A DNA stretch of 64,000 nt from the NCBI GenBank assembly GCA_011800155.1, contig CM022374.1, positions 1 to 64,000 of the forward strand. Direction: 5' to 3'. The translations under genes and the position numbers were made by a program. Each line of letters begins with the position of its first letter. The stretch's first letter is position 1. Shown piece by piece: positions 1 through 37,665 of this stretch. This DNA is from Flammulina velutipes (lineage: Eukaryota > Basidiomycota > Agaricomycetes > Agaricales > Physalacriaceae). A model generated the notes under the pieces. The model searched no databases. It had not been told where the DNA came from and saw nothing but the letters and a program-made list of their open reading frames with translations.

Positions 1-92
1 CCTAACCCCCTAACCCTAACCCCCCTAACCCTAACCCCCTAACCCTAACCCCCTAACCCTAACCCCTAACCCTAACCCCCTAACCCTAACCC
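1..92. repeat. Telomere, C-strand repeat array
   Basis: The array is built of CCCTAA units, reading 5' to 3' into the chromosome as expected for the C-rich strand at a left end. The C run is not constant. It mostly alternates between three and five (sometimes four or six), so the array reads as a composite of about 14 bp, equivalent to TTAGGG + TTAGGGGG on the other strand. It ends abruptly at the first retroelement copy with no transition sequence. This identifies the window start as a chromosome end. Confidence 0.97.
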
Positions 93-3697: not shown

Positions 3698-3725
3698 CCC
3701 TAACCCTAACCCCTAACCCCCCTAA
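3698..3725. repeat. Innermost interstitial telomere repeat
   Basis: CCCTAA-type repeats (C runs of three, four and six) separating retroelement copy 2 from unique DNA. The repeat abuts the coding sequence of the next gene directly, so it marks the site where the broken chromosome was first capped. Confidence 0.93.
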
Positions 3726-5388
3726 GAATGTTCTTCTTATTTGCCCAGAAGCGCACAGTTGCGGTTGATTTGCCGTATCCGTCAATGATGTCGGTGTACA
3801 CAGAGAAAGGAAGACAAAGAAGAGCGATCTATAAGAATATCAAACATGTTAGATAGACTAGGAGAGTATAAGATAACTTACTAAAGCCATTGCGATGTGT
3901 GCTGTCATAATTTCATCCTCCAAAGAGGACTCCGAATCCAGTCGTTTATAGTTGGTATACTTGAGGATCTTGCTAGATTTCCAGTTTTGAACAAATTGAG
4001 GCAGAATAATCTAAGAAATATGTTAGCAACAAGAAGCAAGTATAACTTGTAAGATTGTACTTGTCTTGGGAAGATGAGAGAATCTCTGTGGCCTCTCATT
4101 CCTCTGTAGTTGTCACGAATGGAAATATCCAGCCATTCACTCTTCTGTCCCTCAACAGACAGATTGAGAACCTTCATGATCTCCGGGAGATTCTCCTCGA
4201 CAGTTCCTGTAGTGAAGGCACTCAGCCTATGAGCGTCTGCCTTTGAGAGAGAGGCAGGAGTCGGTGGCCAGTCGACATTGACTATGTTTGTGAGAACGAG
4301 TATATCGTGAAGCATCCAGGCAGTGAACTAGAAGAGATTCAACACATGAACCAAATAATTAGGAGAAGACTTACCGGCACCAATGGAATATTGCGAACAA
4401 GGTGAAAGATATGCAACTGATTTTCCAGTTGGCGGAACAGTGAACGATCGCCTCCATCAACACGAATGAAGTCCTGAAGCTTGTTGCGCCTTTTCACCTC
4501 TACCAGTTGCTCCCAAACGGAACGAAAGACCTCAGGGAAAGTCATCATGCCTAAGACTCCTTTGAAAGTCTCTTTCCATTCCTCTGTAAAGTGCTTTGCG
4601 TTGTCCGTGGCTAGAGGAAGTCGTCGTCGCTCGATAAGGTTCTGAATCTTGTTGTCGAACTCGCGGGTTCCAATAGGCAGTGTGAGTGCCAGTGTGATCG
4701 TCTCCAAAACAAAGGTAGCACAGTTGTTCAAGACGGGCTTAAAAACCAATTCGTTGCCGCTGTACATCATGCGTAGCAAGAATGAGTGATGCAGTTGAAA
4801 TGCAGCTAGTGACACAAGTTAATAGATCATTTCTCAGATAAAGGTGAGAGACATACCAGGATGAAAGACACGTGTAACGAACCGACCCAACGTATCAGCC
4901 AAAGTGATCTCACCCTTGGTGCGAGCGGAAGCCTCGGCTGCTATCGTAGCAGCAAGACGATGTCCTCCTTGCAGATGAAAGAAGGTAACATCGACATCCT
5001 CTGGAACCGTGATAATGTTGTTTTCGACGGTCCACAGATCACGAGCCAGAGCATCAGCGATGACAGCGTAAGAGTCAGTGTCTACGACACTGAGCATCCA
5101 GTTGAGATGATTATCGCCTTGCCAGGTGCCGTGGCCAAAATCAGCAGCGAGGTGGTCGACCTTGGATTGATCAAGCGCACGCTGATAGACGAGACCATTG
5201 TCGAAGGGCTTGAACTTGTTGGTCGGGACAGAGAATCCATACGAATGCCCTACAAGAATCAACTTGTTGGATTGAATGCTTTGAACAAAGTGATCAGGGG
5301 TGGTGATCTTCTCCATTGCACGAGAGATCTCCCTGTCAGAGAGCAGCGTAAGGTTGGAGGTGAGCGAAGATTGAGTGGCTTGAGACAT
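3726..5388 (-). pseudogene. ParB-like-motif protein, truncated in its last exon by the telomere
   Basis: Exons on the minus strand: 5388-4857, 4805-4375, 4327-4061, 4010-3882, then 3828 to the telomere. All junctions keep frame and have GT/AG (GTATGT, GTAAGT, GTACAA, GTAAGT donors). About 487 codons remain and no native stop exists; the frame runs into TTAGGG repeat. Near residue 141 the protein has the motif GGHRLAA, preceded by a beta-rich stretch, resembling the GxxR motif of ParB/sulfiredoxin-fold proteins. That is a motif-level guess and the rest is unrecognised. The leader carries the CCATCATCATC element at 5404-5414, as in its neighbours, and one GTGAC half-site lies near 5470. Probably non-functional or making an aberrant tail. 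Confidence 0.7.
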
Positions 5389-5521
5389 TGAGACTTGTTG
5401 AGAGATGATGATGGTAAGAAGACAAGAGTTGTTTGTCTTTATTGATTGATTGAAGGCCTTTAAAAAGAGGTGACATAAACAACTACAAATATAGAATCCC
5501 TATTGTTCTAAATATCATAGA
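5389..5521. promoter_or_regulatory. Leader/promoter of the ParB-motif gene
   Basis: On the minus strand this holds the leader with CCATCATCATC about 15 nt upstream of the ATG and a single GTCACC-type half-site. No full dyad was seen here, unlike upstream of the neighbouring genes. The 3' end of the next gene lies just beyond. Confidence 0.4.
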
Positions 5522-6198
5522 GATCTAAACGCATCCACATGTAACTAGCCATATCACCATGCAAAGCAATCTCCTCGATAACTCTTCCAATCTCCTTAGC
5601 GACTCTATCAGCAGAGTGAGCCTAACGTTGCGGATCCTGAGACTCCAACCCATCCGAAGCAAACAAGGCACCAGCATTGGTTGGATTAAACCACTGGTGA
5701 GCCACACGATTGACCTCGACTGCCAAGAATGTTGTGAGCAGCTGCTGCACAACAGGTTCAAAGATATCACTGCATTTCATACACATATTAGCAACATAAT
5801 ATCAGGAATAGGAATGAGAGAACGTACCATGCTGTATTGAGTTTCTGCAACTGAACTTCAAGATGAATTTGACGCTCCAACCGATTAGCTTCGAGAATAG
5901 CAAAAAACTCTGTCCAAAGTGGTGTGCCGCCGTGTTCATTGCGGTAGGAGTTTAAGATGACCTCCTCCATCCATCTCTGTGTCATAGCACGGGCGAGACG
6001 GTACAAGGTATGTGCCAGAAGAGATTGGAGATCCTCGTCGTCTTGAAACGTCATTTCTGACGAGCGAGCACTGGTTGGGATACGTTGCAACGTAGAGGGA
6101 ATAAAGGTAGCGATAGGAAGTGGGCTGATGAGTGGTACAACACTGAAAGGGAGCGTTGTATCAGCAGCTGTAGGGACAAAGGTCATCGAGATTTCCAT
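5522..6198 (-). pseudogene. Small two-exon subtelomeric family protein, copy B, with in-frame stop
   Basis: Exon 1 is 6198-5828 and exon 2 starts at 5769, joined by an intron with GTACGT donor and TTGCTAAT branch site. The frame hits TAG at 5624-5622 (172 residues). Beyond that stop the same frame stays open for about 38 codons to TAG at 5522, and that tail (RVAKEIGRVIEEI...) aligns with the C-termini of the two paralogs at 13.3-14.8 kb. The stop therefore looks like a disabling mutation rather than the natural end. Exon 2 shares the family signature VxxLLTTFLAVEV. Function unknown. A degenerate dyad lies upstream at 6285-6305 and a CCATCACCATC leader at 6202-6212. Confidence 0.72.
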
Positions 6199-6284
6199 GT
6201 TGATGGTGATGGTAAGAGGTCAAGAGAGCTTTGAGAACAAATAAGGCAAAACAAGCTACTTATGTCAGCAGTGACTTTCCAAAT

Positions 6285-6305
6285 GTGACCATCTGAGATC
6301 GTCAC
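6285..6305. promoter_or_regulatory. Dyad element upstream of gene B (one mismatch)
   Basis: Arms GTGACCATC and GATCGTCAC around a 3-bp spacer, one mismatched pair. It lies 87-107 nt upstream of the ATG. Additional GTGAC half-sites lie at about 6271, 6312 and 6346, so this promoter has a cluster of sites. Confidence 0.6.
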
Positions 6306-6367
6306 CAAACAGTGACATTTGCTGATGACATCCACATGTATTATAGTGACTGTATGCTACATATATA

Positions 6368-9300
6368 TCAAATATTAGGTGCAACATAATTGAGATAAGT
6401 CCAAAAAGCTGCAGCAAAGAGATTTGTCTTGTGCTCAGGATGTTCGTGTGTACACCATTGACCAAATGCCCAAGACGCAGAGGGACGATCTATCGGGGTA
6501 TAGCCAATGCCTGCTATCATCTCCTTCCAACACGTTGTATATGCAAAGAAAGCCATAGGTCCAATAAGGTTCTTGTTAACGCATCCACTGTACTTGATTT
6601 GATTGTCGTTCGTAGGGCCAACATATTCGGTGTGTAACAGGTCTTCTCCGACACTGATAACGTAGCATTTGAAGCAACAACTATTGGATGGAAAGCCGCC
6701 AGATGTGTTGGGAACCTTTTTGAGTCCTGATTTAAAGGCCCGATAGGCAGCGTTGTTCCGATCCTTCCCTTGCGAAAGCGACGGACAGATCCCCTTGTCG
6801 AATGGATCGTGAATGAGCACTTTGCCATAGCACAGACATAGACCACAGTTGTTGCCACCAAACTCCAACATATCCAAATATCCACCAAACTGTAAATGAA
6901 TCTCCTCTTGCATCATCAAGTATTTTGCTGTCGCAGCTTCTGTTATGCTATCGAAGCGCGTCAAGAGGTGACCACGTAGTTTGGTACTAGACATTGGCTC
7001 AAACACGGTTTGAGGTATATGGTCAAACGTCAGATCGTCGAATTCAGGCCTGAACTTGACATCAGGATGAGCGCGCTGCCATGTTTCGCATCCTATTAAA
7101 TTGAGTGCAGTGTGAGACAGGTAGAGATGAAAGAAAGCAGATGTTTCTGACCTTCACATAAGACAGTATCTGGTTGATAGTTGAAACATGATCGACCAGC
7201 AATGCCATCAAGTATCCAAGACTGTTGTGCGCGCCAGCACGTGTCGCTAGGTCCCTTGGGAGTATTGTTATGACCTTTGAGGTAATGGGTCATTGCGTTA
7301 ATGCCTTGAAGATGTCCTTCCTCTGAATCTGCGCCCTTTGTCTGAGCTGACTTGCGATCTGAGAAACGCAAGATCAACGACGTGAATCGCTTGCCATCTC
7401 TGCCTCCTCGGCCAACCTCTTGAGCAAAGCTCATCATGTTGTATGGATCCCCAAGATGTATGACTGCGCGAACACTGGGAAAGTCCATGCCAGCAGTGAG
7501 AGCAGTACTCGCAAGTAGTCCCTTGGTCGTTCCATCAAGAAAGCGATTCAGTATCTCCTTGTTCTCTCCGCCTGTGGCATCTCGTCCCTCCTTTGGCGCA
7601 TGATAGAACTCCACTCCTAGCTCCTGCGCTCTCTCTCGGCCACTCTTGACGAATGGTACAAACGCGATCCAACGATCCTGCGGTCCAAAGTTGTCAATGT
7701 CAATAGCAGGTGACTTGAGCCATTGTTTCAAAGCTTTGGACAGATTCGCTCCTTCATAGCGTCCTTTATCCATGACAAAGTAGGCCTCCTTTCGTGCAGA
7801 GTTCATGCGAATAACGATAGGTGTCTTCAAGACAAAGTTGGAGATAGCCCAATCAGTGGCCTGAGGTGGAAATGTGCCTGACATGAGAACAACTTGACAA
7901 GGAAACCGGGAGCGTAGCTTGAATGGGAACCGTAAAGAAGGACGAAAGCCTTTCTCCGAGATGTAGGCATGTGCCTCGTCGTAAACGATACGCGCAATGA
8001 TCATGCCTTGACCGACTAGATCACGAAGTGCTTTGCCAAATCGGCCCCAAGCCGCAACATCAGCAGAGACGAGGATAATCCCATTTTCGGTGCGCAAGGG
8101 TGTAGGTTTCGGAGTCTCTGCTACGCTGTCAAACACCTGGTAATGAACGCCCATTTGTTTGAGCCTCCGAACCCAATCATGCTTGAGAGCAAGATAAGGT
8201 ACCACCAGGACAGTGATACCATTTGTCATCTCTGCAGCAAGAACAACATCAGCACTTTTGCCGGATCCCGTGCGCATGGCCATGATAACGTCATGTTCCA
8301 TTTGCATTAACGCAATGAAAGCGTCTCGTTGTGCCACGCTCTTCCACCATGCACTTTCGTCATGCAGGATAGCCCGTAGACGTAGAATAACATCGTCCTT
8401 GAAGATATCGTGTGAGGACTCATACCGAGCGTGAATGAATTGTCCTCTGTGTTCTGTAAAGGTGGGGGAGCTATAAATGTGGCGCACAGGATCTACTGGC
8501 TCTGTGAGATTCAATGGTTCTATGTTAGAGACAGAGTCAGCTAAACGAGTAGGAACAGGTTGTCAGAAAGCACTATACCTTCAGCGTCAGACTCATCAGT
8601 ACTTGATACCCTATCAGGCGAAGGTGACCGCATGATCTCTTCAGGCTCGTTATCAAAAGAGGCTAACAGTTCGTTCTCATCAGATAGATGTTATCAAAGA
8701 AACAATATTCACTTACTAGGATTATAGTAAAAGTCGATATCCTCTTCATTTGGTTGTGGCTCAAAATCTGTCTCTAATGGTCTGTCCTTCTCTTCAGTTG
8801 GTTGAGGAGTAAACTCCATCATTGACGGTCGGTCTGGTCTGAGAGATTGCTGTTTCAGACTCTGCAATTCCTTGAACATATCTGACAACGTTGCCAGTAT
8901 GGTATTTCCAGTGGTTGTATGTTCCGCCTTGAGTTCTTGAAGCTCCTTCTTCACATCAGCAAGTTCCTCCCGTAGTCCTCCAGTATCCACCACACCACCC
9001 TCGGCCGGCAGTGTAGTCGTCTTCTCTTTCTTTCCACCTTTAATGAGACCACGCTCCACACACGATGTCCAGTTGGTATGCAAAGTCTCCGCGTACGTGA
9101 GATGCAAGCCACCAGGCACAACCTTGAGAGTAAGCTGCCAGTCAACCGAGTGCTGCAAGAAGATACGAATCATGTCTTCTGGTACGCCAGTCATGGCACT
9201 CATAGACAAGCCGTACCGTGAAACATCGGTCTTTCCACTGTGTCCCATTTGAAGTGCCCCGATAGTATCGCTCTCTCCAGCGTCATCAATAAGGTCCTCC

Positions 9301-12064
9301 ACATGCGGATGCAATTTCCGTTGAAAGGCTGCAAAGATATGACGATGCGTGTTGAGTCCCATCGCAAAGCCGACACTCTTTGTACTATGTTTCTCCATCA
9401 ACTCGCTGAGACGTCGTGAGGTGAACTCCTTGCCCAAGTCCATGAACATGTTCTCGCCGTACCACTGCGGGACCTGATGTTGACCTTTGAAGAGCCGAGT
9501 AGCCAGCCAGACTGCCATCGGGCGGGCCAGCGCATGAATGTTTACCAGTGTACGAGCTGTAAAGCTGTCTGGTGCGTTTGGAATAAGACGATCATGGCCA
9601 GAGGTGTGTGTCGTCTTGGTGTACTGACGTACGAGAGCAGTAAACTCTACCAAACCGAACCAGTTGCGCACCCTCCACTCAGTGTTGCGTGCCAGCATGG
9701 ATACTAGTTCGGTTCCTCTTGCGGGGCCTCCACTCATGAGCTGAACAGCGACCATAGCCAGTCCCTCTAGTTTAGCTAAAGATTGCAGCCACTTGCGAGC
9801 ACCAATTGGATTGATCTCTTTAGTGTTGGTAGAGAGAAACTGCCGACGAGTACTCTCGGAGGTGAGCAATGCTCGAACCAGGTCGTTTCGATGAGCTTTG
9901 AACTGCGGGTTCCCAGGATGATCAAGGAAACAGAACCCGGGGGTCTCCTCCGTCAGATTGTCCGTCAGGTCCTCGTAAGTGAGCTCGATGTTTAGCCCAA
10001 GACAGACCTCCTTCTCCCAGACCTCCTTCATCTGGTCCTGAATGTCGTAGGCCATCTTTTGCATGTACGAGAGCTTGAAGCGCTGACCGTGATACAGCAT
10101 TTCGGTAAAGTTCTCGTGATCGATCCAGAAGATAGGTGGCATGGAGGTGGTGTTGGTAGCCAGAGCGGCGGCGTAGGCCATGATCTGGCGAAGACCAGAG
10201 AACGTTGACTGAGTGTCCGCACGTACCCAGTCGTGTAGCTCCTGCATGACCTCGATATGCGACTTGGAGGGAATATCTTCGACCTGCTTATGTACCTCTC
10301 GGAGAGTGAAGAGTCGAATGGCCCGCATTATACGGGCAAGAGCAGGAGTGACATCAGCGGCGTTGTCAAACTCGCCGGTCGCGCGCAAGTGATGAATGGC
10401 TAGGAAGCAAAGAGTTGGATCCCCCCATGGAATAGCTTTGGTGACTGGCCAGTATACCATCCACAGGTGTCGAAACACTTCATGGACTGTCTCGTTGAAT
10501 TCGTCTTGTTGATTGTCAATAATCGTAGGACGTAGAACATTCAGCCAGTTGGTAAGGTCTTCGCTTTGAGGAAAGTGATAGTATCCTGTATCACTCTCCT
10601 CTGGCTCAAAGAGGAGACAACACAACAGATGTTGGATAGGAAGCACATACGACTTGATCGTAGTCGCGTGCTGATGATGAACAGGAAGAGGTGTGCGGTT
10701 AATGCCACTAGTTTGCCAAGTCAGTATTGATGACCACGAATATGATATGATTACGATACATACTCTCGAGCAGGATCCTCAGTGTTCAATGTCCTTAGAA
10801 CAAGTTCCTCCGTAGAATCAATCAAGTCCGAGACACCGTTAAAGTAACCCTCCAACAGCGAGCCAAGATGGGTGAGTGGATCGTCCTTTGCTGGCAAGGT
10901 CCATTGCTTCTTCACCATCTCTGTATTGGTTCCTTCCAACATAACGTGCCATCGTACACGTGCAAGTAAAGGATTGATCTTGCGCATGTCCTTCTCGTTG
11001 GATCGCACAAGGTTGCGATAGTTTAGTTCGCCTGCTTCTGTAATAGCCTCCTCAAACCAATCTGTAGGTGGCGGAGATTTAGGTGGCGCGACCGGTGGAA
11101 GTACTCCTCGGGCCTTGCTTTGATCGCCAGGCTGATACTTTTGAAAGAAGATGTTTTCGAGTATGTCTCGGGCCACGACATCCTTGTGAGAGCTTCGATG
11201 TGATCGGGCAGAGCCCAAGGTGCCTGCGACTGATCCGCACACACTGCACATGAAGCCACCGCTATGCACAACTAGTCCTTCCATTGGGGGAATGAGCTTC
11301 GGTGTGATAGCGATCTTGGTCATCTCTGGTGGAAGGCAAAGAGCGGCCATGACTGCGTATAATGGTTCCAAGGACGCAGCATCAATGTCCTTGTGATATT
11401 TATCAAAGTGTTTCCTGGCTCGAACTCGCTGACTGTTGATACAGACACCACAGGCTAGGCAGATGATCACGTTCAGCTGCTCCGAAAAGGCACAACGAAG
11501 ACCTTCGAGCTCAGGACATGTCCGCAGATACGATGTTCCTGGAAGAAGCGATAAGGAGTAGTCGCCGACACGAAGAATGGACGGTAGGATTGTAGAAGAG
11601 GACGATGAACCAGTGTTCTTGGATGCAGGATATGCCAAATCATGAGGCGAGAGAATAGCCTCCTCCTCGTCAGACAATTCTGGTATGTGCTGCAAGCAAG
11701 CGGTGATCAAGACAAGACTGAATATTGATGATAAGGTAGAACGTACCGCGCCCATCATTGTCGCGTACAATTGAGGACTTGTTGCGCTTCGAATCCGTTT
11801 AAAGGTCGGCGAAAGACCAGTCCCAGTCTGCGAGCCTCGCTTGGTTGGTGGATGAGGTGGACTAACACCTGCTGGTGGCGAGGCTGGTCGAGGAGGAAGC
11901 TCCAAAGATATTGCCATGCCATGGTCGCTGGTTTCAGAGTCAATAGACATTGCTGAGCTCGCAACAGAGAGTGCTCTGTTCCTTGTCTGTAAGCTGCCGC
12001 CTATCAGACTCTGGTAGCTGCCGCTAGCCAAAGGAGTGAACACAGTGTGATTGGAGTTGGACAT
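6368..12064 (-). CDS. OrsD zinc-finger / tyrosine recombinase / RecQ-like helicase fusion protein
   Basis: Six exons keep frame: 12064-11747, 11689-10764, 10707-8717, 8662-8579, 8519-7152, 7092-6368, giving 1803 residues. The first intron (11690-11746) is a multiple of three and could be misread as coding. Domains: paired C2H2-like fingers (CLACGVC...H...H near residue 182; MCSVCG...H...H near 254) of the OrsD type; a tyrosine-recombinase core with ARGTEL (Arg about 745), THRH (Arg about 869), GHS (about 904) and nucleophile Tyr about 913; a coiled coil near 990-1045; a RecQ-type helicase with Walker A RTGSGKS (about 1189), DEAH (about 1287), MSGT and QEVGRGGRDG (about 1473); a Cys-rich C-terminus. 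It is transcribed toward the telomere, as are telomere-linked helicases. I infer a DNA-rearranging or telomere-maintenance role. Confidence 0.85.
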
Positions 12065-12114
12065 TGGAGATGATGGTGGTTCAAGAACAAAGTCAGACAA
12101 GTGACAAAGGGTCG

Positions 12115-12135
12115 GTGACCATCTTGGATGGTCAC
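12115..12135. promoter_or_regulatory. Perfect dyad element upstream of the recombinase-helicase gene
   Basis: Perfect 9-bp arms GTGACCATC and GATGGTCAC with spacer TTG, 51-71 nt upstream of the ATG. A TATA-like ACATATAG abuts it on the upstream side (minus-strand sense). The position suits either an operator near the start site or a 5'-leader hairpin. Confidence 0.75.
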
Positions 12136-12222
12136 TATATGTTACAAGATAAGATAAGATAGATGTCATTGATATTGCAAAACAAAAAAAAACGTCGTTT
12201 CGTAGATACAAGTATACAAAAG

Positions 12223-13122
12223 TTAAGCTTCAACAGTGCGGCGGCCAGTACGCACCCATCCCTTCCTCTTGTTACGAACCTCGTCAACTACACCATCCAA
12301 GACTGACATGTACTGATCAGCTTGATCAGCATTGAACCTGACAACAGGGCCAGCGGGGTCGACTTGGTAGAACATCGCCTCGATGCCTTTGACGCCTTGC
12401 TTGGGGTTGTACTCGAGGTACTTGTTGGCCTTGTCTCGTTCCTAAAGCCAACACATCAGTTTCTCAAGGTTTGGTACAACTGAAACATTACTCACCAAGT
12501 CTGTGTACTCCTTGTACAGTTCGTCTTTCTGCTCTTCTATTTCAAAGGTCAGTATGAAGTTTAGATAGAAAAACAAAGAGAAAAAAACGAACCTTCGTAC
12601 CCAACAGTGCAGCTAACACGAATGATAGCACCAGGACCCTTCTCCTCCAAAAAGTGCTTGTAGACCAACTCGATCTTCTCGTCGAGATCGTCAGGATAGG
12701 GTGCCACACCCACGTGAGTGGCCTTCATGATATCAACCATGAACTTGTTGAGAAAGCCCTCGTTGTTGGCTCGGAGCTCGTCGATTGGCGTGAGACTACA
12801 TGTTTGAAGTTAGTGTAAGAACTTGGAGTAAAAAGTACAAAGCTCACGTGTTGAGGTTCTCACTGAATCCATACCACTTTGTAACAAAGCGGGGCTCAGG
12901 TACCACCTCACGATCCTGGAGAACAGTGAAGACGATCGAAATGACAGCCTCTGCAAAGATAAAAGTAAGTTGATACTGAAAATACTGACAATAAACACAA
13001 CACATACCAATGAACCACCTGACATCGGCAGTGCCGTCCTCGCTGCGCATGTACATGTGGGACAGGGTTGGAGGCCTCTTGCCACCCCTACCACCCTGAG
13101 GTCTGCTGCTTGCTGGAGCCAT
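12223..13122 (-). CDS. Unknown five-exon subtelomeric protein (226 residues)
   Basis: Exons 13122-13008, 12950-12848, 12795-12593, 12536-12496 and 12441-12223 join in frame to 226 residues ending in a TAA. Donors are GTATGT, GTGAGC, GTTCGT and GTGAGT; introns are 52-57 nt. The protein is acidic in the middle (DDLDEKIELVYKHF, EEEQKDELYKEYTDLERDK) with a basic N-terminus (RPQGGRGGKRPP) and basic C-terminus (RNKRKGWVRTGRR). No domain recognised. It sits directly upstream of the recombinase-helicase gene in the same orientation and shares its regulatory signature: perfect dyad at 13266-13286 and CCATCACCATC leader at 13159-13169. Confidence 0.8.
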
Positions 13123-13265
13123 TGAAAAAATTGAGAGATGAAAGAATAAGTTGAGTTTGATGGTGATGGTTCAAGTTCAAGAGAGGTTGATCTGTTTGAG
13201 TATGTTTGGACCCTATTTTAAAAAAGGTCATACTTTCCCACGCCCAAATAGGACAGTCACCTTAT

Positions 13266-13286
13266 GTGACCATCTTGGATGGTCAC
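13266..13286. promoter_or_regulatory. Perfect dyad element upstream of the five-exon gene
   Basis: Identical 21-bp sequence to the copy at 12115. It lies 144-164 nt upstream of the ATG. A second, shorter dyad (GTCACC-TTAT-GTGACC type) overlaps its left edge at about 13256-13271. Confidence 0.75.
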
Positions 13287-13334
13287 CTCTGAGTGTCACT
13301 CAGTTGCAGTGTGGAGGCATAAAGTACAAGTAAT

Positions 13335-14027
13335 TCATTCTACATGGCATATCATGTTGAGCTCTTTAAACAACCAATTTGCCAACCCATTCTTTGTATC
13401 CTCCAATAGGTCATTCACCTTCAAGTCCACATCATATGCCACCTTGTCAATCAACTGCATCCATTCATTGATGTCATGTCCAGTGACGATGAGCACATCT
13501 CTGTAGGAGATATTGTGCTGTTGCCAGCGTTCCAATACAAGTGGATTGACCACAGTAACCAAATAGCTGTCGATGAGACGCTGGACTTGAGTATCGTTGA
13601 CGTTCCTAGTGTGTGTGCGTACGACGTGAGCTTTGTTGGTACCATAAAGGAGGCATAAAGCTTACACCAAAGTACCTATTATCTCCACGCTGCTGCATAT
13701 CTGTGCGAGACTGTCTTTCCTTTGCGAGTGCAGCACTGTCTCAAAGACACGATACGTGTTGTAGTGGTCTTCGAACTGGCTGTCTGACATGCTCGCAGGC
13801 TGATGGTCGAGTTCAGCGTCCTTGATGAACCTGATCATCCATTCCTTGGCCATGACGTTGGCGAGACCTCCAATGCCTTCAGCCAAAGGAGCGCGTTTTT
13901 GGTCCTGCATTTGAATAGGCGTGTGGTTGGGTTCGAGGTATGGGGGAAGATGCTGGCCAATAGGAAAGGTCCTGCACATGGCAGGCAGAGCGAGAAGACG
14001 ATCTCCAAAGGAAACTGAGTACTGCAT
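13335..14027 (-). CDS. Small two-exon subtelomeric family protein, copy D
   Basis: Exon 1 14027-13666 and exon 2 13605-13335, 210 residues. The donor GTAAGC at 13665 was preferred over the GTACTT a few bases upstream because only it gives the frame shared with the paralogs. It begins MQYSVSF, has PIGQHLPPY and an EWMIRFI helix in exon 1, and NVNDTQVQRLIDSYL at the exon junction. It is a clear paralog of 14113-14794 and a more distant one of 5522-6198. No domain recognised; predicted mostly helical and soluble. The leader has CCATCATCATC (14032-14042), a TATTTATA box and a single GTGACC half-site instead of the full dyad. Confidence 0.8.
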
Positions 14028-14112
14028 GATTGATGATGATGGTGGTAAGAGGTAAAAGAAGGATACAGGGACAGTGACCTATTTATACGTGTTTTTGTTT
14101 ACATAAACCAAA

Positions 14113-14794
14113 CTATGCCAACGCGTTGAGCTGCTCCACTACAAAGTTTGCCTTTACGTCGTTCTCGTCCTCGACTTTGTTGATCACCGCCCAGTACATC
14201 TCTTTTGCTGTATTCTTCAGCAAACGCAACTGCAGCTTGACATCGTCCTTGTCAATAGCCAATCGATCGTCTGCATCAATGGTGTCCTGCTGAAAACGCT
14301 TCACAAGGAGAGGCGCAACCTCTGATGCCAAATAGGAATCGATAATCCTTTGGACTTGGGTATCGTGAACGTTGCTAAAGACAGACATTGAATGCGTAGA
14401 CAGTCAAGTGATTGAGACCCACGTACACAATGAGTGCCAAGTCCTCTATCGCGCTGGTAAGCATTGTAGAAATGGTGTGCTGTTTGTAATCTTTGAAGCT
14501 CAGGTCGAGCGAGAGATAGGTAACCTTGATGTTCACAAAGGTGGCGGAGGTCATGCCGCTGGGCCGGGAAGTGAGGCGGCCGCTACTGAGAAAGGCGATC
14601 ATCCACTCGACAGCCATAGCTTTGGCGATTCTACCCAGACCCTCAGCCAAGTCGCCGCGCCGCTCAGTGGTGTTGATTTTGGCAGCTGAACGATTGGCGG
14701 GCACATGGTAGGAGGTGTAGTGGCCAATAGGAAGACCAAGGCACAGAGGAGGAAGAGTGAGAGTGCGTGTAGCAAACTGAACTTGGTACTGCAT
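14113..14794 (-). CDS. Small two-exon subtelomeric family protein, copy E
   Basis: Exon 1 14794-14427 and exon 2 14374-14113, 209 residues, nearly the same length as copy D. The start is the MQYQVQF methionine rather than an upstream in-frame codon, because it aligns with MQYSVSF of copy D and leaves the CCATCATCATC leader untranslated. Shared blocks: PIGHYTSYHVP, AEGLGRIAKAMAVEWMIAFL and NVHDTQVQRIIDSYLASEV. Both family members place their intron in phase 2 at the same codon. Function unknown. A dyad with one mismatch lies 43-63 nt upstream. D and E are a tandem duplication with clear divergence, so the family is old. Confidence 0.82.
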
Positions 14795-14836
14795 GATGAT
14801 GATGATGGTAGCAGTGAGAGAAGAGTGATTGATGAT

Positions 14837-14857
14837 GTGACCATCTTGGATAGTCAC
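14837..14857. promoter_or_regulatory. Dyad element upstream of copy E (one mismatch)
   Basis: Arms GTGACCATC and GATAGTCAC with spacer TTG; one pair is lost compared with the perfect copies at 12115 and 13266. It is the most centromere-proximal copy and lies close to the edge of the gene unit. Confidence 0.7.
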
Positions 14858-14867
14858 AAGGTGTGAT

Positions 14868-14962
14868 GGTTACCCAAAAAGGGAGGGGGTTACCCAAAAG
14901 GGAAGGAGGCATCAGTTTAAATTGATGGCATCAGTTTAAAAGTGATGGTACCTTTTAAGGCT
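14868..14962. repeat. Short tandem duplications at the edge of the subtelomeric unit
   Basis: Two imperfect tandem pairs follow one another: GGTTACCCAAAAAGGGAGG / GGTTACCCAAAAGGGAAGG, then GCATCAGTTTAAATTGATG / GCATCAGTTTAAAAGTGATG. They lie just before the large inverted repeat begins and may mark a rearrangement junction. No gene here. Confidence 0.65.
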
Positions 14963-15284
14963 TGCCTTTAAATGAAAGACTTTTGTTAGGCGTAAATTGA
15001 TCTTGCCTTTGCCTAATATGTGTATCAAGAAGCCTGCCTCGATGGTCTTTCGATTTGAATAGTTGATAGTGCCTATAAAACTCACCGCTTGAACGGGAGA
15101 TATAATCTAGAATGTCCATTATCATACTATGCTGCTATAGAGCATTGCCTACCATATCAACAGTTTGCATCGAGACAGATATAAGAGCATCTTGCCATAA
15201 TACTAGCTCCATTTTTGTAGAAGATCTCGGTGTTACGTGAGAGCGCGGTGTATGATACACTGTTTCTATCGATTCGCAATTGTT

Positions 15285-16335
15285 AATCAGATGACGAATG
15301 CAAGTATACCTTCCCCCTTCGACATCTACATGCGCCCATATCGTAGGTCCCAAGAGGCGCTCAGATGATCCCTACACGATGCAGGATATTGACGGTCATG
15401 GGATACGGACTATAACTTGCAGATCGGTTCCATGGATCGTCGTCCAGTATCTAATCTTCCTGACTATAAGTTCTTTCGATATTGACATATACCCCTACAG
15501 TCAGCCCAATGAGGTATAAAGCATCGATCTCTCAGTAGACAGCTTTAACGGCGAACTTGCTATATTTCATTTAGACCCCGCACACGCGAGCATGATCGAA
15601 CACCTACAAGCGCCCATCCCGCTCAGCTGATCTGGGGTAATCGCACATCGTTTTAATTTGCCTCCGAGTGACTACTGGAACAGCTCTTTTAAACACAGCG
15701 TGAATGAGGATGCTCAGCTCACACCACTTAGTCAGGTGCCTTCATGGATAATCTCCATAACCTCCCGACCCGGGACTGTATGTCCGTTGATATCTGAGAC
15801 CTACCACATTGTCCCCGCAGGAGGGTCAAATTAATATCAAACTGCATTCATCGATGACGAATATCGTTATGTCATTCGGTATTCAGTAGTGCGCCACACG
15901 CACTTCAGAAGTGGTCGGAACCGGTACAATGAATATATTGAATATGTTATAGGAACCGTTGGTACCAGATTCACGGTGTGGGATTCATCCTCGTGGAGTC
16001 TGTGAGGCGCCCTGACGAACCCATACTCCCTTCTCCGTTTCGCACGTACCTTTCCTTAGCGAGTGCCCCTAATGCGTGAAGACTCTTTAAGCCAAGCCCC
16101 ACAAAAGGTCTTGACGGTGTTAACATTCGACAAATGGCTAATCGGCTATACACGCTCGGATTGGTAGGTCTCTGAATGATATTGAAGAACGGAGGACCGT
16201 GAGAAGAATACGAAGAGAAGTCTCCTTATCGCGAAGCGTTCCATGCACTCTACGCCTAAAATGTATTCCCCAGATTATCCGACCTCACGCCTTTTGGGCG
16301 ACGCGTTAGCCCCATGATCAGCAGACAAGTTCAAA
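15285..16335. repeat. About 1.05-kb repeat, copy 1 (no gene)
   Basis: Non-coding repeat with copies at about 22125-23285 (same orientation) and 31100-32160 (inverted). Landmarks in order: GCGCCCATA...GTAGGTCCC, GGTCATGGGAT, TTTAGACCCCGCACACGCGAG, CTGATCTGGGGTAAT, GCGTTAGCCCCATGATCAG. No convincing reading frame. Confidence 0.75.
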
Positions 16336-16619
16336 TCTGTTTCCGTATCCAGTGACCAACAAGCTAGGCATAACCCTAGCGTCTGCCTTTGTAGGGAGCT
16401 GTTGAAGGTAAGTCTCATTGATTCAAGTACCAATTTAGTACGTTCCAAGTACATATCTAACAACTCTGTATCACTAAAACGTCCACTTCGTTATTCAAGT
16501 TACGGTACCGAACATATTCTACAGCTGTTCTACAGTCCGCTAAGGCTGCATGCAGCCTCGGCTGATCTGGAATAGTCGACGCCATCTTGGATGCGGAGTA
16601 GACAACGGGGAACTCTCGT

Positions 16620-18080
16620 CCTTTGATTCATAGCTCCTCAACGACCGACGAGAAGACCATGAAACGACAGTCGACGGAGGAAACGATGCGTAGGTGGTAG
16701 GCTTCGACTTGCGGTAGCCTGAGATCAACAGGTTGAACGTTTCTGAGATCATGATCAGCGACGGAACGAACGAAGAGGAGAAAATGACATACTGAAAGAA
16801 TCCACCAGGAGAGTACACTGAGCCTCGTCATAGCATAGCTGTTGACAACGATCCCGTCAACTTTGTTCCAGGCGGAAACGTGATGATGTCCTTCTCCGCC
16901 TTGGATTTCAGTCAAGGTCGAACCCATAGGACGTTCCTTGACACGTTCCAGGGAAGCGCTGGCGCTGTAAGACGAGGAAGAGGTACTGAGCGACTTTCTT
17001 CCCTTTGCGTCTAATCCTCTTCTTCGCGTCGGTATCGAGCCCAGACGATGCAGAGAAAATTTCGTCCCCGTTCCCGTTTGAAGGGACGTTCTGCAACAAC
17101 CTGGTGGGAATGGGAGGCGGTAACAGCGCGACCTCTTTGGCCTCACACTGGGGTCCCGCGCCGTCATGTTTGGTCCACTGAAATCCAACTGATCCGAAGG
17201 GAACACTTCGTCGCGTGTACCAGCGATGGATAACGCTGGAGCAATGTTCACGCCCAAGTCTCCCCATCGGCTACTGCTCTCTTCTCGCTCTCTCTTCCAA
17301 ACTCGGCAAGCGGCGGACGCGCTCGTCTGCCTTGTGCTCCTTGCCGAGACGCGCCCAGGACGAGTCGATCGTCGTCCCAGTCAACGTCGAGAGACCAGAA
17401 TAGAAGTGGAAAGGACCCTATCGTATTGCTTGAGATACTGCTGTAAGAAGTTTTGGCGAGGTGCAACGTACTGGTCGTTGGCCGGAATTGCAAAGGAAAA
17501 CAACAGCGACCGGATCGATGGCGCAGGCAGTCGATGTCCTCGTTACTGTAGATGATTGAGACGCGGCAAGCAGACAGAGTATGAAGGAACGCACTGTTGT
17601 TACCCATGCGAGGTAGGTCCACGGCTCTCTCCATCTCCGACATCGCGATGACTATCGTATGATCCAGCGAATCTGTACGGCTGCCGCGTCCGCGTCGAGA
17701 CAATCGGGCGGGAACGGGGGACTCGTCCTAACGCGTTTCCTCTTCTTGCTGAGGTCTTCCCCCATCTTCGCTACGTCCCTCGTCCGGAGTCGCGCCGGGA
17801 AAACTTGATCACATAAACAATTAAGACGAGGGGTGCTGGTATCGGCGGGTTATCAACAGAGAGGCAGGAGTAAGGGACACATTTGGTGTAGAGGGCATCG
17901 ATGTGTTTGCTACTACTGCGCAAGTAGGGAGTAGTTCGTCCAGCGCAACGTCGAAATCGTCTGCGCCTTGTTCCATGCTTCCATTGTATTCACAGTCGGG
18001 AAAACGACCAACTCCTCCAGTTTGCGAACGGGTTCGTATTTGACGAAATCCGAACCGTTCTTCGGAGAGAAGCTATTCTG
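16620..18080 (-). pseudogene. Decayed gene of unknown family ('Y'), left-arm copy
   Basis: Frames aligning with the right-arm copy are broken into pieces: EMERAVDLPRMGN near 17.65 kb, SSWARLGKEHKADERVRR near 17.3 kb, and APALSIAGTRDEV followed by LTEIQGGEGH near 16.9-17.25 kb. They lie in different frames with stops between them. An intron-like segment (GTGCGTTCC...TCTACAG) is conserved between the copies near 17.55-17.6 kb, which argues that it was once a spliced gene. No domain recognised. Related remnants lie at 29340-30790 and 45190-46200. Confidence 0.55.
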
Positions 18081-19283
18081 CCGGGACAGTCAGCGACTGC
18101 CAACGAAAGTAAACAAGACTACCTAGCGCACGCACCTGCTTTTGCTTTTTCCATTTTTTCCTCATCGTCGTACTTCGACCGAGCCGATAAATCTTTGAGT
18201 ACGTGTCTGTTGGTGTCAAGCGGGCAATGTGCAGTTACCCTGACGGTCATGGTAGAGCCTGACGCCTTTTTCACGGCGCCGTGTGAACTGCAGAGCTGTA
18301 GCAACGCCATAGAAAAGTGGTTGATCAATGTAGGAGCGCAGTATCATGGAAGAACAAAATCAAGGCAAGGCAAGGACCAAACAAACACAATCTGTCCAAG
18401 ACTTCTGCTTGAACCTTGACTGCCACTGGCTGGCGATTCTCTGTGTCAATGTATCTATGACAATCCTCCAAGACGCTGTACGATCTCATGAACTGATGTC
18501 CTGGCTCTTTTTCTCATCGGATGTACGGACCGTCTCGCCGTCGGTCGAATCGTGGCGTCCTCTTATTTCTGCAGTCTGCATCTTTGCGAGGACTTGTACA
18601 TCTGGAAATGTGCTTTCGATTGCCATATTCCATCGTTTTCTATCCGCGTCCGACATATTCGTCGTCTATGAGCTCCTTACTTGCGTTACGGACCCAATGA
18701 CCAAATTCTCAAAATTGCATGGGTGACTAAGAGGTACGGTACTCCATCTCCGGCTTCAGGACTACGCTGATAGCTTCTAGATGGCCTCTAATATCTGCGG
18801 GAAAGCAAAACACTTTGACCTGGCAAGTTAACCCGAGCGTAATCGAGGAGACTATGAACCCTCGCCTTCCTTGCATCTTGCGAACCATACCATTCACGAA
18901 CGCCAAGCACTTGACCTGTGCGCTTTTTGCTGTCTATCGGGGAATTTCTAGCGCTCATCGTCTACGTTTCCTCAGGCTTTTATCCCTTACGTTGACCTGA
19001 TGATGTCAACGTTCAAGGTGAATGAATATCGTTCTCAAGGTTCTGCTCTGATATCAATAATCCGGAGGACAACAGGATGGTTTCAAAAGGAATCTACGTC
19101 TTCTTCCTCCCGCGCTAGCGATCATTCTGTCAAACTGAGGTGCAAAAATTCGACAATAGGTGCCCAATCTCTAGAGGATTCCAAGGCGACGCGCGCGTGA
19201 AGTATGATGAAGAAGCTCATGCTCGTGCCATATTACGTGTCTCGTTCCCAAGCACCCAGCGACTCGTGACGATTTCGAAGCTA
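18081..19283. other. Intergenic part of the left repeat arm
   Basis: Only short scattered frames. The sequence matches the right arm at about 28085-29340 in inverse orientation, but neither copy gives a continuous or spliced coding sequence I can support. Nothing else identified. Confidence 0.5.
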
Positions 19284-20287
19284 CATTCATTCTGATAGTC
19301 GAAGCCTGGAGCAATAAAAAAGCAAGCGCATCCGAAAATTCCTCAATCTACCTCGATGCCTCCCACAACGTCCTTCACGTTGTGTGACACCGACGTTGCA
19401 GCTTCCACAGCCTTTTCCGCTCTGAAATCCATCTATCGTCTAGTTATCGACTGTGAGGGACTCGATCTAGGCCGTGATCCCGGCCAGTTGTCCCTCCTCA
19501 CCATCGGCACAATAAGACGGCGTCGTCACTCGTCTTTGTCTTTGATATCCTCAGGCTTTCCACTGAGTCCCTCCAGCCCATCTTCGGCCTCCTCTCGTCC
19601 CCTACCTATACCAAAATCGTCTTCGATGGACGTATGGACTATTCTGCACTCTATCACGAGCACGGCGTCGAGCTCGTTGGTGTACTCGATCTCCAGCTTG
19701 CGGCTATACAGTCGCCAATCAACACATACGCGATGCTGGTTAAGTTCATGGGCCCGGCCATGGCTGAAAATAAACGGGACTACAAGAAGGTCCGCATGTT
19801 GCCTGGGTTGGGATACTGTATCAGCGTATGCAAAGTCAGTTCCGAGCGTGGTGACGGAAAAGTGAAGAGTAAGTTGTCGTCCTCCGACTCGCTACGGTCG
19901 GGTGCTAACAGTTTGCCGATAGTTGACCATCGTCAATGGCTCGTCCGTCCATTGCCTGCTCGCTATCTCGAGTACGCCGCAAATGACGCTATCCTCATCG
20001 CTAAACTCTACAAAGAGTTCGACACTCGTCGTTACAGCACGAAGAGGCTTTCGGAACAGAGCGCTCGATACATCACTCTGTTCAAAGGCGGGAAGAAATC
20101 CCCAGGGAATGGCACGTTTCACTCCAATCCATTCCTCCCGTTGGACATATTGACCTACAACGAACGAAACCCCAGGAAAGCGTGCTCCGGATGTAAAAGA
20201 CAGTTATCTCAGAAGTGTTTTCCGGAGGCGGAGGGTGCTGCGTATTGCTTTGTGTGCAAAGCTGTGTTGGCGAAGGCGGCTCAGTAG
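19284..20287 (+). pseudogene. DEDDy 3'-5' exonuclease, disabled left-arm copy
   Basis: Homologous over its length to the intact gene at 27055-28068. Three visible lesions: the initiator ATG of the intact copy reads ATT here (19284), a base is lost shortly after (near 19302), and about ten bases (TATCCCCACC in the other copy) are missing near 19511, shifting the frame between LLTIGT and the FDILRL segment. Downstream the original frame resumes and stays open (DGRMDYSALYHEHG, YLEYAANDAIL, C-terminal CSGC...CFVC). The 54-nt intron with GTGCTAACAG branch site is also preserved. The lesions look recent. Confidence 0.8.
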
Positions 20288-22124
20288 GTAAAACCATGTA
20301 TACCTCGGTTGTAACATCAGTGTAAGTGGTTAGTACATCTTCGTCCGACGTCCCAATGGTTTCTCTATCGCGTGGGCGAGCGCGTGATCTCCGACGCGTC
20401 TACAAGCGCCCATGCTCCTCCAGGTACCACTAAGGCGCAAGAGAACGGCGCTCAGCTGATCTGGGGTAATGTGGGGATTCTCTCGACGTCGGTCATGGGA
20501 TGCGGGGTAGTCTTAGCAGATCGAAGGTTAGCGTGAACTGAATGAAGCCATTCATTCTGCGCTGAAGCGAGTTTTACCGTTATGATCCTGAACGGGACCG
20601 GCGGGCGTAATCGATTCTCTAGCATTCGTCTCTACCTGCGTTCTATATGAATGTCTGAGAGTCAATTGATGGGGTGTAAATTGCGCGGAGGCCTTTGACT
20701 CTTGAATTCGAGACGTCTACATGTACCCACAACCCGCCCATCTCGCCTCAGCTGATGTGGGGTATTGAGTCCGCTTGTCATGGGATGCGGGGTCAATACG
20801 ATATGAGCTGGCGCTGTTTCAATTCATGACGCGCGTAGGGTATATCATGCGCCGACTGCTCTGCCTCGTAGATCTCCTACGTGACACCTAAAATTTCTTC
20901 ATCTGTAGCATACGGGACTTTGATCTCTATTCGCTCTCGGTATTGTGATATCCTAGTCGAATACTCTGCGAAGAATGGACTCGCGAGCGGAAGCTATAGT
21001 AGAGTGTCAAAGTAATCTCGCACAGGGAAGTAAACTCTCCATCAGACTCTGGCGTTGCGGGGAGAGGACGCTGGGAAAGTGCTCTTATCGATGAGCCTAA
21101 TCCGTCATGACAGAGAGAGAAAGGAACGAGATATGCTTGATGCGTGAAATCCGCTGTTGTCTCCGTGGGAACGCACGAATCAGGATAGAAAGGCGCACGG
21201 AGGCTCGAGAGCTCCAGTGGCCCAATCGCAGCCAGTCATCCCAAGTTGAGTTCCTCAGCATAAATTTGTTTCTAAATATGCCCTATTCATGATGATTCAG
21301 CTACCGGGTCCGACATCGCAAATCAGTGCAGACCGGCGGCGTGCGCCACACCGGGCTCCCTCGATCCCAAATCACCCATTATTGCTGAGCTCTTCAATCC
21401 ATTTGATTATATCTGACATGACGATATTCCGGGGCCACATTTTAGATTCGAGTCTATCCAATTCGACTCCAATCTAGCTTTTGATTGAGCTTGTTCCCTT
21501 CCACGCAAGTTTGTTCACTGTTAAGCTTTGTTATACTAAAGCGAGGTGCGCACCAGCCGTTTGGTCGTGTCTTTGACTAAGTCTTGCTGTGGCTGCTATA
21601 TCCTTTGAATCAGCTTGTTCATCGTTCTCCGGAGACCTGATTTCTTGACGACAAATTCCTCCGATACAATTTGTCTTTCTGCCGTAGATGCTCACCAACT
21701 TGCTCTAAAATATATCGCAAACTACCTTGACGACTGTGATATCTGATTAATCATACGCTTTTCACTGTGTTCAGCATGTTCAGCTTGGTCTTCAAGAAAA
21801 TTAATGACTGTGACATTCACAGTATCCGTCGACGCGCACGGGCGGTAGACTGCACGTACTTGGAAATCTCGACTAGTACTACGGCATTAGCAGACTGCAA
21901 TGATGAACGGCCAAGAATCACTATCTATCGAGGTAAACAAGACATTGGAACCGAAACTGTAACCTGGAGGCGCTCAACAATTCGGAGTACAGTGAAAGTT
22001 ATTATAACGATGTTTAGACTATCACCGCCCGTTAGCTAACCACATGCTTTGGAATGAACATGATATCCCTGTGTTAAGTGGTTCCATTAAGTTCAATTGT
22101 ATTGATACACAATGACTCTATATC
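20288..22124. other. Inner end of left arm and spacer, no gene seen
   Basis: Contains repeated short motifs CTACAAGCGCCCAT, CAGCTGAT(C/G)TGGGGTA and GGTCATGGGATGCGGGGT near 20400-20510 and 20725-20790, which recur throughout 15-33 kb. Frames up to about 90 codons exist (for example near 21.8 kb) but have no supporting features. Confidence 0.5.
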
Positions 22125-26689: not shown

Positions 26690-27054
26690 TGTAAGACATG
26701 ATATGAATGCTGAAAACCCGATTACGCCCGCCGGTCCCGTTCTGGATCATAACGGTGAAACTCGCTTCAGCGCGGAATGGAGGGAATGAAAGGCTTCATT
26801 CACTTGACGCTAACCTTCGATCTGCTAAGACTACCCCGCATACCATGACCGACGTCGAGAGAATCCCCACATTACCCCAGATCAGCTGAGCGCCGTTCTC
26901 TTGCGCCTTAGTGGTACCTGGAGGAGCATGGGCGCTTGTAGACGTCGGAGATCACGCGCTCGCCCACGCGATAGAGAAACCCTTGGGGCGTCGGACGAAG
27001 ACGTACTGAATATTTACATTGATGTTACAACCGACGAGGTATACAAGGTTTTAT

Positions 27055-28068
27055 CTACTGAGCCGCCTTCGCCAACACAGCCTTACACACAAAACAATAC
27101 GCAGCATCCTCTGTCTCCGGAAAACACTTCTGAGATAACTTTCTTTTACATCCGGAGCACGCTTTCTTGGGGCTTCGTTCTTTGCAATACAATATGTCCA
27201 ACGGGAGGAATGGATTGGAGTGAAACGTGCCATTCCCGGGGGATTTCTTCCCGCCTTTGAACAGTGCGATGTATCTAGCGCTCTGTTCCGAAAGCCTCTT
27301 CGTGATGTAACGACGAGTGTCGAACTCTTTGTAGAGTTTAGCGATGAGGATAGCGTCATTTGCGGCGTACTCGAGATAGCGAGCAGGCAATGGACGGACG
27401 AGCCATTGACGATGGTCAACTATCCGCAAACTGTTAGCACCCGACCGTAGCGAGTCGGAGGACGACAACTCACTCTTCACTTTTCCGTCACCACGCTCGG
27501 AACTGACTTTGCATACACTGATACAGTATCCCAAGCCCGGCAGCATGCGGACCTTCTTGTAGTCCCGTTTATTTTCAGCCATGGCCGGGCCCATGAACTT
27601 AACCAGCATCGCGTATGTGTTGATTGGCGACTGTATAGCCGCAAGCTGGAGATCGAGTACACCAACGAGCTCGACGCCGTGCTCGTGATAGAGTGCAGAA
27701 TAGTCCATGCGTCCGTCAAAGACGATTTTAGTATAGGTAGGGGAAGAGAGGAGGCCGAAGATGGGCTGGAGGGACTCAGTGGAAAGCCTGAGGATATCAA
27801 AGACAAAGACGAGTGGCAACGACGTCTTATTGGTGGGGATAGTGCCGATGGTGAGGAGGGACAACTGGCCGGGATCACGGCCTAGATCGAGTCCCTCACA
27901 GTCAATAACTAGACGATAAATGGATTTCAGAGTGGAATAGGCTGTGGAAGCTGCGACATCGGTGTCACACAACGTGAAGGACGTTGTGGGAGGCATCGAG
28001 GTAGATTGAGGAATTTTCGGTTGGGCTTGCTCTTTTATTGTTCCAGGCTTCCGACTATCAGAATCCAT
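27055..28068 (-). CDS. 3'-5' exonuclease, DEDDy (RNase D/WRN-type) with C-terminal zinc motif
   Basis: Exon 1 28068-27474 and exon 2 27419-27055, 319 residues. The 54-nt intron has GTGAGT, GTGCTAACAG and TAG; being a multiple of three, it leaves the unspliced frame open, but these splice signals argue for removal. Catalytic set: IDCEGLD (Asp56, Glu58), FDGRMD (Asp119 and Asp122), and EYAANDAIL, the YxxxD Exo III motif. The C-terminus has CSGC and CFVC spaced like a zinc ribbon. Expected to remove nucleotides from DNA or RNA 3' ends; substrate unknown. Its inverted twin at 19284-20287 is broken, so this is the only usable copy here. Confidence 0.88.
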   Translation of the reverse strand: MDSDSRKPGTIKEQAQPKIPQSTSMPPTTSFTLCDTDVAASTAYSTLKSIYRLVIDCEGLDLGRDPGQLSLLTIGTIPTNKTSLPLVFVFDILRLSTESLQPIFGLLSSPTYTKIVFDGRMDYSALYHEHGVELVGVLDLQLAAIQSPINTYAMLVKFMGPAMAENKRDYKKVRMLPGLGYCISVCKVSSERGDGKVKSELSSSDSLRSGANSLRIVDHRQWLVRPLPARYLEYAANDAILIAKLYKEFDTRRYITKRLSEQSARYIALFKGGKKSPGNGTFHSNPFLPLDILYCKERSPKKACSGCKRKLSQKCFPETEDAAYCFVCKAVLAKAAQ

Positions 28069-29339
28069 GTAGCTTCGAAATCGTCACGAGTCGCTAGGTG
28101 CTTGTGAACGAGACACGTAATATGGCACGAGCATGAGCTTCTTCGTCATATTTCACGCGCGCGTCGCCTTGGAATCCTCTAAAGATTGGGCACCTATTGT
28201 CGAATTTTTGCACCTCTTAGTACCCCAAGCGGTCTGACAGAATGATCGCTAATACGGCAGGAGGAAGACGTAGATTCCTTTGAACCATCCTGTCACCCTC
28301 CAGATTATTGACATCAGAACGGAATCTTGAGAACGATATCCATTCACCTTGAATGTTGACATCATCATGTCAACGTAATGAACTAGGGAAACGTAGACGT
28401 AGGGCGCCAATGATTCCATGACAGACTACGAAAAGCGAACAGGGCAGGTGCTGGGCATTCGTGAATGGAACGGTTCCCAGGATTCAAGCAAGGCGAGTGG
28501 TTCATAGTTTCCTCGATTGCGGACTTTCGAGGGAGCTCGTCAGATTCCTTTGAGAGACGCGCGGGCTAGCTTACCTCTAAATGACAGGCCAAAGCGTTTT
28601 GATTTCTTCCAGCGTCTATCAGAGGTAATCTAGAAAATATGAAGATCCTCAAACCAAGGAGTACCGTACCTCTTGATCATCCATGCGATTTGAGACGAGC
28701 GAGACTTCGGTCATCTCGTCCATAAAACAAGTAAGGAGCTCCTAGACGACGAAGAGGTCGGACGCGATTAGAGGACGATGTAATATTGCAGAATGAAGCG
28801 CCTTTTAAGTCCTTTCAAAGACGGTATAAGAGCACGCCACGGTTCGAGTGACGGAGGAACGGTCCGTACATCCGGTGAGAAATAGACCCAGGACATAGCC
28901 GGTTCCCGAGATTGTACAGCCTTGCGGAAGAGAATTGTAGGTCGCGCAGCAAGAATTCCAAGAATCAACAGCTGGTAGTCAAGGTTCAAAAGTTCGAGGT
29001 CAGTATTCAACAAATTGTGTTTGTTTGGTCATTACTTCGCCTTGACTTTGTTCTTCCATGATGCTCCTGCATTGATCAACCACTCGTCTACGGCGTTGCT
29101 ACAGCTCTTTCGTACACACGGCCCCATGGAAAAGGCGCCAGGCTTTATCATAATCTCCAGGATGACTGCACACTGCCCGCTTGCCACCCACAGAATCTCA
29201 AAGATGTATCGACTTCTTCGTCCAAGTAGGACGACGAGAAAAAAATGGAAGGGTAAATTCTGGTGCGTGCCCTGGGTATTCTCCTTTACCTTCTTTGGCA
29301 GTGGTTGACTGTCCCGACAGAATAGCTTCTCTCCGAAGA
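28069..29339. other. Region between exonuclease and gene Y in the right arm
   Basis: Upstream flank of the exonuclease and counterpart of 18081-19283. A minus-strand frame at 29032-29493 is open for 153 codons but overlaps gene Y on the opposite strand, and its left-arm counterpart is full of stops, so I treat it as spurious. Confidence 0.45.
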
Positions 29340-37470: not shown

Positions 37471-37620
37471 CAGGGGGATACCATCGGCCGTTTCCGTGAA
37501 ATCGACTCCTTTCGTATGGTCGTGGGATACTTGAGGGTAACCAAGGTATGCCGCTCTTTCCGGCGCGCCGAATCACTGATGCATGATGCGCGCCTCTCCA
37601 TTGTCGCGTTCATCGCGTCG
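37471..37620. repeat. Transposon terminal inverted repeat, left
   Basis: Pairs with 42180-42342 inverted. After position 37597 the left side lacks about ten bases present in the right terminus, then similarity resumes (GTCGCGTTCATCGCGTCG). Confidence 0.85.
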
Positions 37621-37665
37621 TATTACTACTGCGTGTATTGTAGCATTCGGTAATATAATAATATA

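Follow-up and report, generated by a model that had tools for sequence, protein, structure and literature searches.

RecQ-like helicase genes occupy subtelomeric positions in several fungi, and the reason for that location is a standing question. The best-known cases are the telomere-linked helicase (TLH) regions, which include Ustilago UTASa/UTASb, fission yeast tlh, and the RecQ-like genes of Magnaporthe, Fusarium, and Agaricus bisporus. Excerpts of PMC10532341 report an OrsD domain in Ustilago UTASb, and excerpts of PMC12857005 describe Fusarium TLH regions that are intermixed with telomeric retroelements. Saccharomyces Y′ elements are subtelomeric and helicase-coding, and occur singly or in tandem with interstitial telomere repeats (PMC13177704, in excerpt). 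Here we analyze the first 64,000 bases of contig C7 of Flammulina velutipes (hereafter, the window; C7 has 2,963,594 bases in a genome of 38.1 Mb and 23 contigs). Six genes, all on the minus strand between the telomere and position 14989, form a unit that we read, with a probability of roughly 0.55, as a copy of a subtelomeric mobile DNA element comparable to TLH regions and Y′ elements.

An earlier note, made from the letters of this DNA, had proposed a unit of six telomere-facing genes ending at 14857. The gene arrangement is confirmed, with a telomere array at the contig end, and the unit is real, but its inner end lies at 14989, at a sharp border common to other contig ends. All gene models and introns listed here were predicted from sequence.

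1..92, no strand: telomere repeat array (CCCTAACCCCCTAA)n at the contig end
94..3697, plus strand: telomere-associated reverse-transcriptase (RT) element, a truncated and a longer tandem copy (RT open reading frame 1328-2851)
3698..3725, no strand: 28-bp telomere repeat tract, outer junction of the unit
3706..5388, minus strand: gene A, five predicted exons, 493 aa as read, 3′-truncated
5622..6198, minus strand: gene B, two predicted exons, weak relative of E and F
6285..6305, no strand: dyad upstream of B, of the type GTGACCATC-NNN-GATGGTCAC
6368..12064, minus strand: gene R, six predicted exons, 1803 aa, OrsD, tyrosine recombinase, and RecQ-like SF2 helicase
12115..12135, no strand: dyad upstream of R
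12223..13122, minus strand: gene D, five predicted exons, 226 aa
13266..13286, no strand: dyad upstream of D
13335..14027, minus strand: gene E, two predicted exons, 210 aa, E/F family
14113..14794, minus strand: gene F, two predicted exons, 209 aa, E/F family
14837..14857, no strand: dyad upstream of F
14837..14989, no strand: conserved inner terminal segment, last element base 14989, common to C6 and both C12 copies

The chromosome-side border of the unit is exact to the base (CTAACAAAAG...; minus-strand start CTAACAAAAGTC). A genome search with 14837-14998 returned four places in all: the unit itself, one at C6, and two at C12. When they are aligned in the direction of the telomere, the four copies begin at CTAACAAAAGTCTTTCATTTAAAGGCAAGCC, and the flanks preceding it share no similarity. 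The copies are 96-98% identical over the first 102-104 bp and 88% identical over the next 43 bp before they diverge, and the proteins adjoining the border are only 31-33% identical. All four copies point toward the telomere, and the border is present at three contig ends. Within the segment lies a 19-bp repeat unit in 2.1 copies (14908-14948); a terminal hairpin was considered as a special structure and found unconvincing (z -1.05). The combination of a common border with dissimilar flanks at four junctions points to a donor with a fixed end that became attached to four unlike sequences. The junctions do not represent four independent lineages, and the events were perhaps fewer than the junctions, because the two C12 copies share 99.93% identity over 2986 bp, and C12 matches C6 at 98.1% over 2.7 kb, tail included.

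The flanks themselves are partly traceable. A diverged inverted paralogue of the C7 flank lies in the window at 32358-32448, where the match stops at the border; no further copy of this flank was found in the genome. The second C12 copy begins within retroelement sequence, of which an uninterrupted version in the window continues differently. Two bases are common at the junction of this copy and one at that of C7. For the C6 flank, no uninterrupted copy was found.

Host genes of a TLH neighborhood may also have been duplicated passively, copied between ends by ectopic recombination or break-induced replication in a unit that promotes no movement of its own. The near-identity of C6 and C12 through the tail fits such copying, as do the variable helicase-bearing ends described in excerpts on Agaricus bisporus (PMC7473861) and Fusarium oxysporum (PMC12857005), and the relatives of R at the ends of C3, C4, and C9, which lack the common border and the dyad. 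Two points count against it. Four junctions with unlike flanks share a breakpoint to the base, where ordinary duplication should give variable breakpoints or common flanks, and the border is far better conserved than the adjoining genes. We therefore consider passive duplication unlikely.

The outer end differs from the inner one. The open frame of gene A enters the telomere repeats with no stop codon before them; it is cut at the telomere junction (3725), and its final codons and stop are supplied by the repeats at 3698-3725. The C7 copy thus ends inside A. In the C6 and C12 copies the end is a different sequence, which lies some hundred bases past the second gene and leads into TTAG-type repeats. 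The element therefore has no fixed outer end, and its gene A is truncated. The C12 copies are arranged in tandem with telomere repeats between them, and C7 and C6 carry a single copy each. In this layout the short C12 copies resemble Y′ elements. One exact inner end used repeatedly, an open outer end, tandem copies with telomere repeats, and, in the C7 unit, a helicase gene are traits of Y′-like and TLH elements. Unlike Y′ elements, the unit has no 36-mer-type array, only the 19-bp repeat already mentioned, carries extra genes, and adjoins dissimilar sequence at its inner border.

Outside the telomere tract at 3698-3725, and joined to the unit through it, lies the RT element (Pfam RVT_1, E = 1.4e-06, 28.6 bits against a cut-off of 29.6). 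It presumably resembles the telomeric endonuclease-less Penelope elements (Coprina), a label that we assume. Copies occur at eight contig ends (C4, C6, C7, C8, C9, C10, C13, and C19) and also inside C8 and C1. The pieces are mostly 92-100% identical, with two short ones at 74 and 85% and a relative at C8:1.80 Mb at 30%. The internal copies at C8:731967-737666 and C1:110454-111953 (110 kb into C1) are 99-100% identical and are possibly old fusions or assembly joins.

The RT element is an addition separate from the unit. That the unit is instead cargo of this neighbor, as in a Terminon-like giant retroelement, is an account to which we give very little credence. It would draw on the retroelement lying directly outside the unit and on a retroelement fragment between the C12 copies. 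Telomere repeats, however, separate the two, the RT and the unit genes are antiparallel, and RT copies occupy seven further contig ends that gave no match to the border. The fixed end also lacks the C-rich repeats that are expected at the RNA 3′ end of Terminon-like elements. Telomeric Penelope-like elements (Coprina, Terminons) are RNA-based; the unit is like them in occupying the same chromosome ends and unlike them in its opposite orientation, the RT element here being only its neighbor.

The largest gene of the unit, R, joins an OrsD zinc-binding region, a tyrosine recombinase, and a RecQ-like SF2 helicase in a single protein, which bears out the recombinase-helicase fusion proposed in the earlier note. 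The five catalytic residues of the recombinase (R745, K779, R870, H904, and Y913) are invariant in 6/6 proteins of alignment A4 and 6/6 of alignment A5, which have three proteins in common and leave out the C3 and C23 relatives. Its predicted structure has an Xer/Cre-like catalytic fold, and a Foldseek search gave 117 matches at E <= 10, none of them at E <= 0.001. The helicase core matches Pfam DEAD (3.2e-12) and Helicase_C (1.4e-10) and contains the motifs GSGKS at 1191, DEAH at 1287, and QEVGRGGRDG at 1473. The PDB sequence search with alignments A3 and A4 gave no match. A viral origin was also considered and set aside: in one scan of viral_contigs with the recombinase profile, five stretches matched by pattern, and none is a relative.

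R lies 6.4-12.1 kb from the contig end. Distant relatives at C3, C4, and C9 lie within 52 kb of a contig end and point toward it. Three further loci do not fit this location pattern, namely C8 at 261 kb, C23, and C7 at 1.43 Mb.

A recombinase with intact active-site residues and a matching structural model, together with a fixed inner terminus, would also suit a tyrosine-recombinase transposon of the Crypton or Starship type, inserted by site-specific strand exchange and stripped of its outer half by breakage and telomere healing. Random insertion followed by loss does not predict that four copies share one orientation with a telomere tract at the outer flank. At E <= 0.1, the recombinase exon returned only two weak, unrelated Pfam rows and none for a Starship captain-type family, of which a diverged member could be missed. 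Cryptons are described with direct repeats of 4 or 6 bp at each terminus (PMC3212892, in excerpt). Neither a terminal direct repeat nor an empty site could be demonstrated here, the outer terminus being absent in all four copies. The unit thus resembles Cryptons and Starships in carrying a tyrosine recombinase and differs from them in fusing it to OrsD and a helicase, in showing one terminus, and in having all four copies terminal. We regard this origin as quite improbable.

Taken as a subtelomeric mobile DNA element, the unit would work as follows. Its fixed inner terminus (CTAACAAAAGTC...) would be joined to broken or eroded chromosome ends, and its outer end would stay open, with telomere repeats added wherever the last cut fell, so that the C7 copy would stop in A and the C6 and C12 copies past two E/F-type genes. 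It would move as DNA rather than RNA, because its genes have predicted introns and point outward from the fixed end. We infer that the element is mobile and that R performs or assists joining or amplification; that R itself makes the joins would be a guess. The common dyad and CCATCA leader would turn the genes on together. This agrees with the earlier suggestion of a mobile or amplifying subtelomeric element, given one border at four junctions with dissimilar flanks, at three ends, facing the telomere and in tandem at C12.

A more specialized role would be that of a telomere-capping DNA element, in which R would process the fixed terminus (CTAACAAAAG...) and attach it to broken ends, the element would spread as a ready-made chromosome end, and its genes would form one regulon turned on through the dyad and leader. 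The comparison here is with HeT-A in Drosophila, which makes new chromosome ends via RNA. We think this capping role rather unlikely.

The 21-bp dyad, which was searched across the whole 38-Mb genome, lies upstream of four of the six genes (B, R, D, and F). With at most one mismatch it occurs at ten sites, four in the C7 unit, two at C6, and four at C12. A dispersed promoter motif, which would occur genome-wide upstream of unrelated genes, is rejected on this count, since 10/10 of these sites are confined to the three element-bearing ends. Two mismatches add two sites, one upstream of the C9 paralogue of D and a stray one on C3; at up to three mismatches, the dyad pattern gave 41 rows and its reversed control 29. 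A CCATCA-type leader within 50 nt of the ATG precedes all six unit genes and 9/11 genes overall (the unit, the C6 pair, the first C12 pair, and the C9 gene), against a background, with a slightly looser pattern, of 27/1848 ATGs in window positions 15001-64000. The promoter and leader elements that the earlier note had seen as shared by the unit thus hold for the leader throughout and for the dyad in part, A and E being without it. The dyad is presumably a regulatory site, and dyad and leader together probably switch the unit genes on jointly.

Several observations weigh against a mobile element. Within 260 bp of A, E, and the second gene of each C6 and C12 pair, no dyad was found, and those second genes also lack the leader. 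Only three contig ends carry the border; C6 and C12, at 98% identity, may represent one event copied between ends, and the C12 tandem could be an assembly artefact. The short C6 and C12 copies lack R, D, and A, and the outer end is intact in none of the four copies, so that the complete structure, a target duplication, and excision are invisible. Finally, homologues do in part occur singly. The nearest paralogue of R in the genome (C8:260928-263488, 53% identity) stands 260.9 kb inside its chromosome, matches the OrsD region and the recombinase but not the helicase, and has no other unit genes in the 10 kb fetched around it. The paralogue of D (C9:1416458-1417242, mid-C9, 197 aa as predicted, with four predicted introns) carries its own dyad (two mismatches) and leader and stands alone within the 9-10 kb fetched. 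The unit genes are therefore not inseparable.

Outside the window, the E/F family was found at two contig ends only: C6 carries one pair of genes (C6:903-2473) and C12 carries two pairs (C12:2196475-2201031). E and F are evidently paralogues of each other (33% identity). B, which had been counted with them as a third paralogous small protein, is a weak relative (18-23% identity to other members); an in-frame TAG breaks it off after 172 codons, and the same frame then stays open for another 37. In a tree of five proteins of the E/F/B group, F clusters with E, and the two C6 genes with each other, both groupings being weakly supported (59 and 84). The family profile gave three matches among 2404 protein-database candidates, none of them named. 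Synonymous against non-synonymous changes number 4 vs 3 (F1) and 5 vs 6 (F2) on about 130 and 480 sites, which suggests purifying selection from few changes; in the comparisons for D and R, synonymous sites are saturated or nearly so. The model of D agrees with the five-exon gene described earlier.

How far the system is new can be judged against TLH regions. The unit shares with them a gene for a RecQ-like helicase, at most about 12 kb from the telomere, and relatives of that gene at other chromosome ends. Unlike them, it combines OrsD, tyrosine recombinase, and helicase in one protein, within a six-gene set that has a common dyad and a base-exact inner border. The description of an undescribed system is thus too broad, RecQ-like TLH genes and OrsD-bearing Ustilago subtelomeres being known (excerpts of the papers cited above). 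The word recombinase has no occurrence in PMC10532341 and PMC7473861, two single papers rather than the whole field. No description of this combination was found in the open PMC literature as screened by title and start of abstract, a screen that took in the top of longer lists and left subscription papers mostly outside. New here is the base-exact inner border common to the unit and the C6 and C12 copies. Together with the recombinase-helicase fusion and the common promoter code, this sharp border makes the question of subtelomeric location testable, through the action of R on border DNA and landing on broken ends. Border and dyad also provide a marker with which such elements could be sought in other fungal genomes assembled from long reads.

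Gene A had been labeled ParB-like, and a role in DNA partition had been suggested from it. Its only ParB-like feature is a GGHR motif, and A has no match in Pfam, PDB, or the protein database (none of 7997 candidates). With the motif as its basis, a partition role is not supported. No further copy of A was found in the genome. A single-sequence structural model of exon 1 alone reached a pLDDT of 30 and was not used. Downstream of R relatives at the C4 and C3 ends lies a large gene with an ADGHHR/ADGTHR motif (L067:3785-6652, plus strand, and L066:5334-3708, minus strand, respectively). Its C4 version comprises open frames of 259, 168, and 558 aa, its C3 and C4 pieces are 43-51% identical, and two weaker relatives lie at C4:3628589 and C3:40442; no Pfam family was found for it. 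Homology of A to this gene was rejected at the sensitivity used (hhalign probability 0.4; shuffle test 0.33 and 0.17).

An Rfam scan of the window and of stretches L062, L063, and L027 found nothing at gathering score. Inward of the unit, the window contains an inverted duplication of about 5.6 kb (14990-20627 and 26705-32448, with pieces 75-91% identical). Each arm has a gene with DNA_pol_A_exo1 (3′-5′ exonuclease), and one arm has the element attached at its end. Further in, perfectly complementary 127-bp repeats (37471-37597 and 42216-42342) flank open frames of 836, 350, and 338 aa, the first two without a Pfam match at 0.01; 37471-42342 is likely a DNA transposon. A Transposase_21-like (tnp2) open frame lies at 59611-61176 (24 bits; Pfam cut-off, 28.6).

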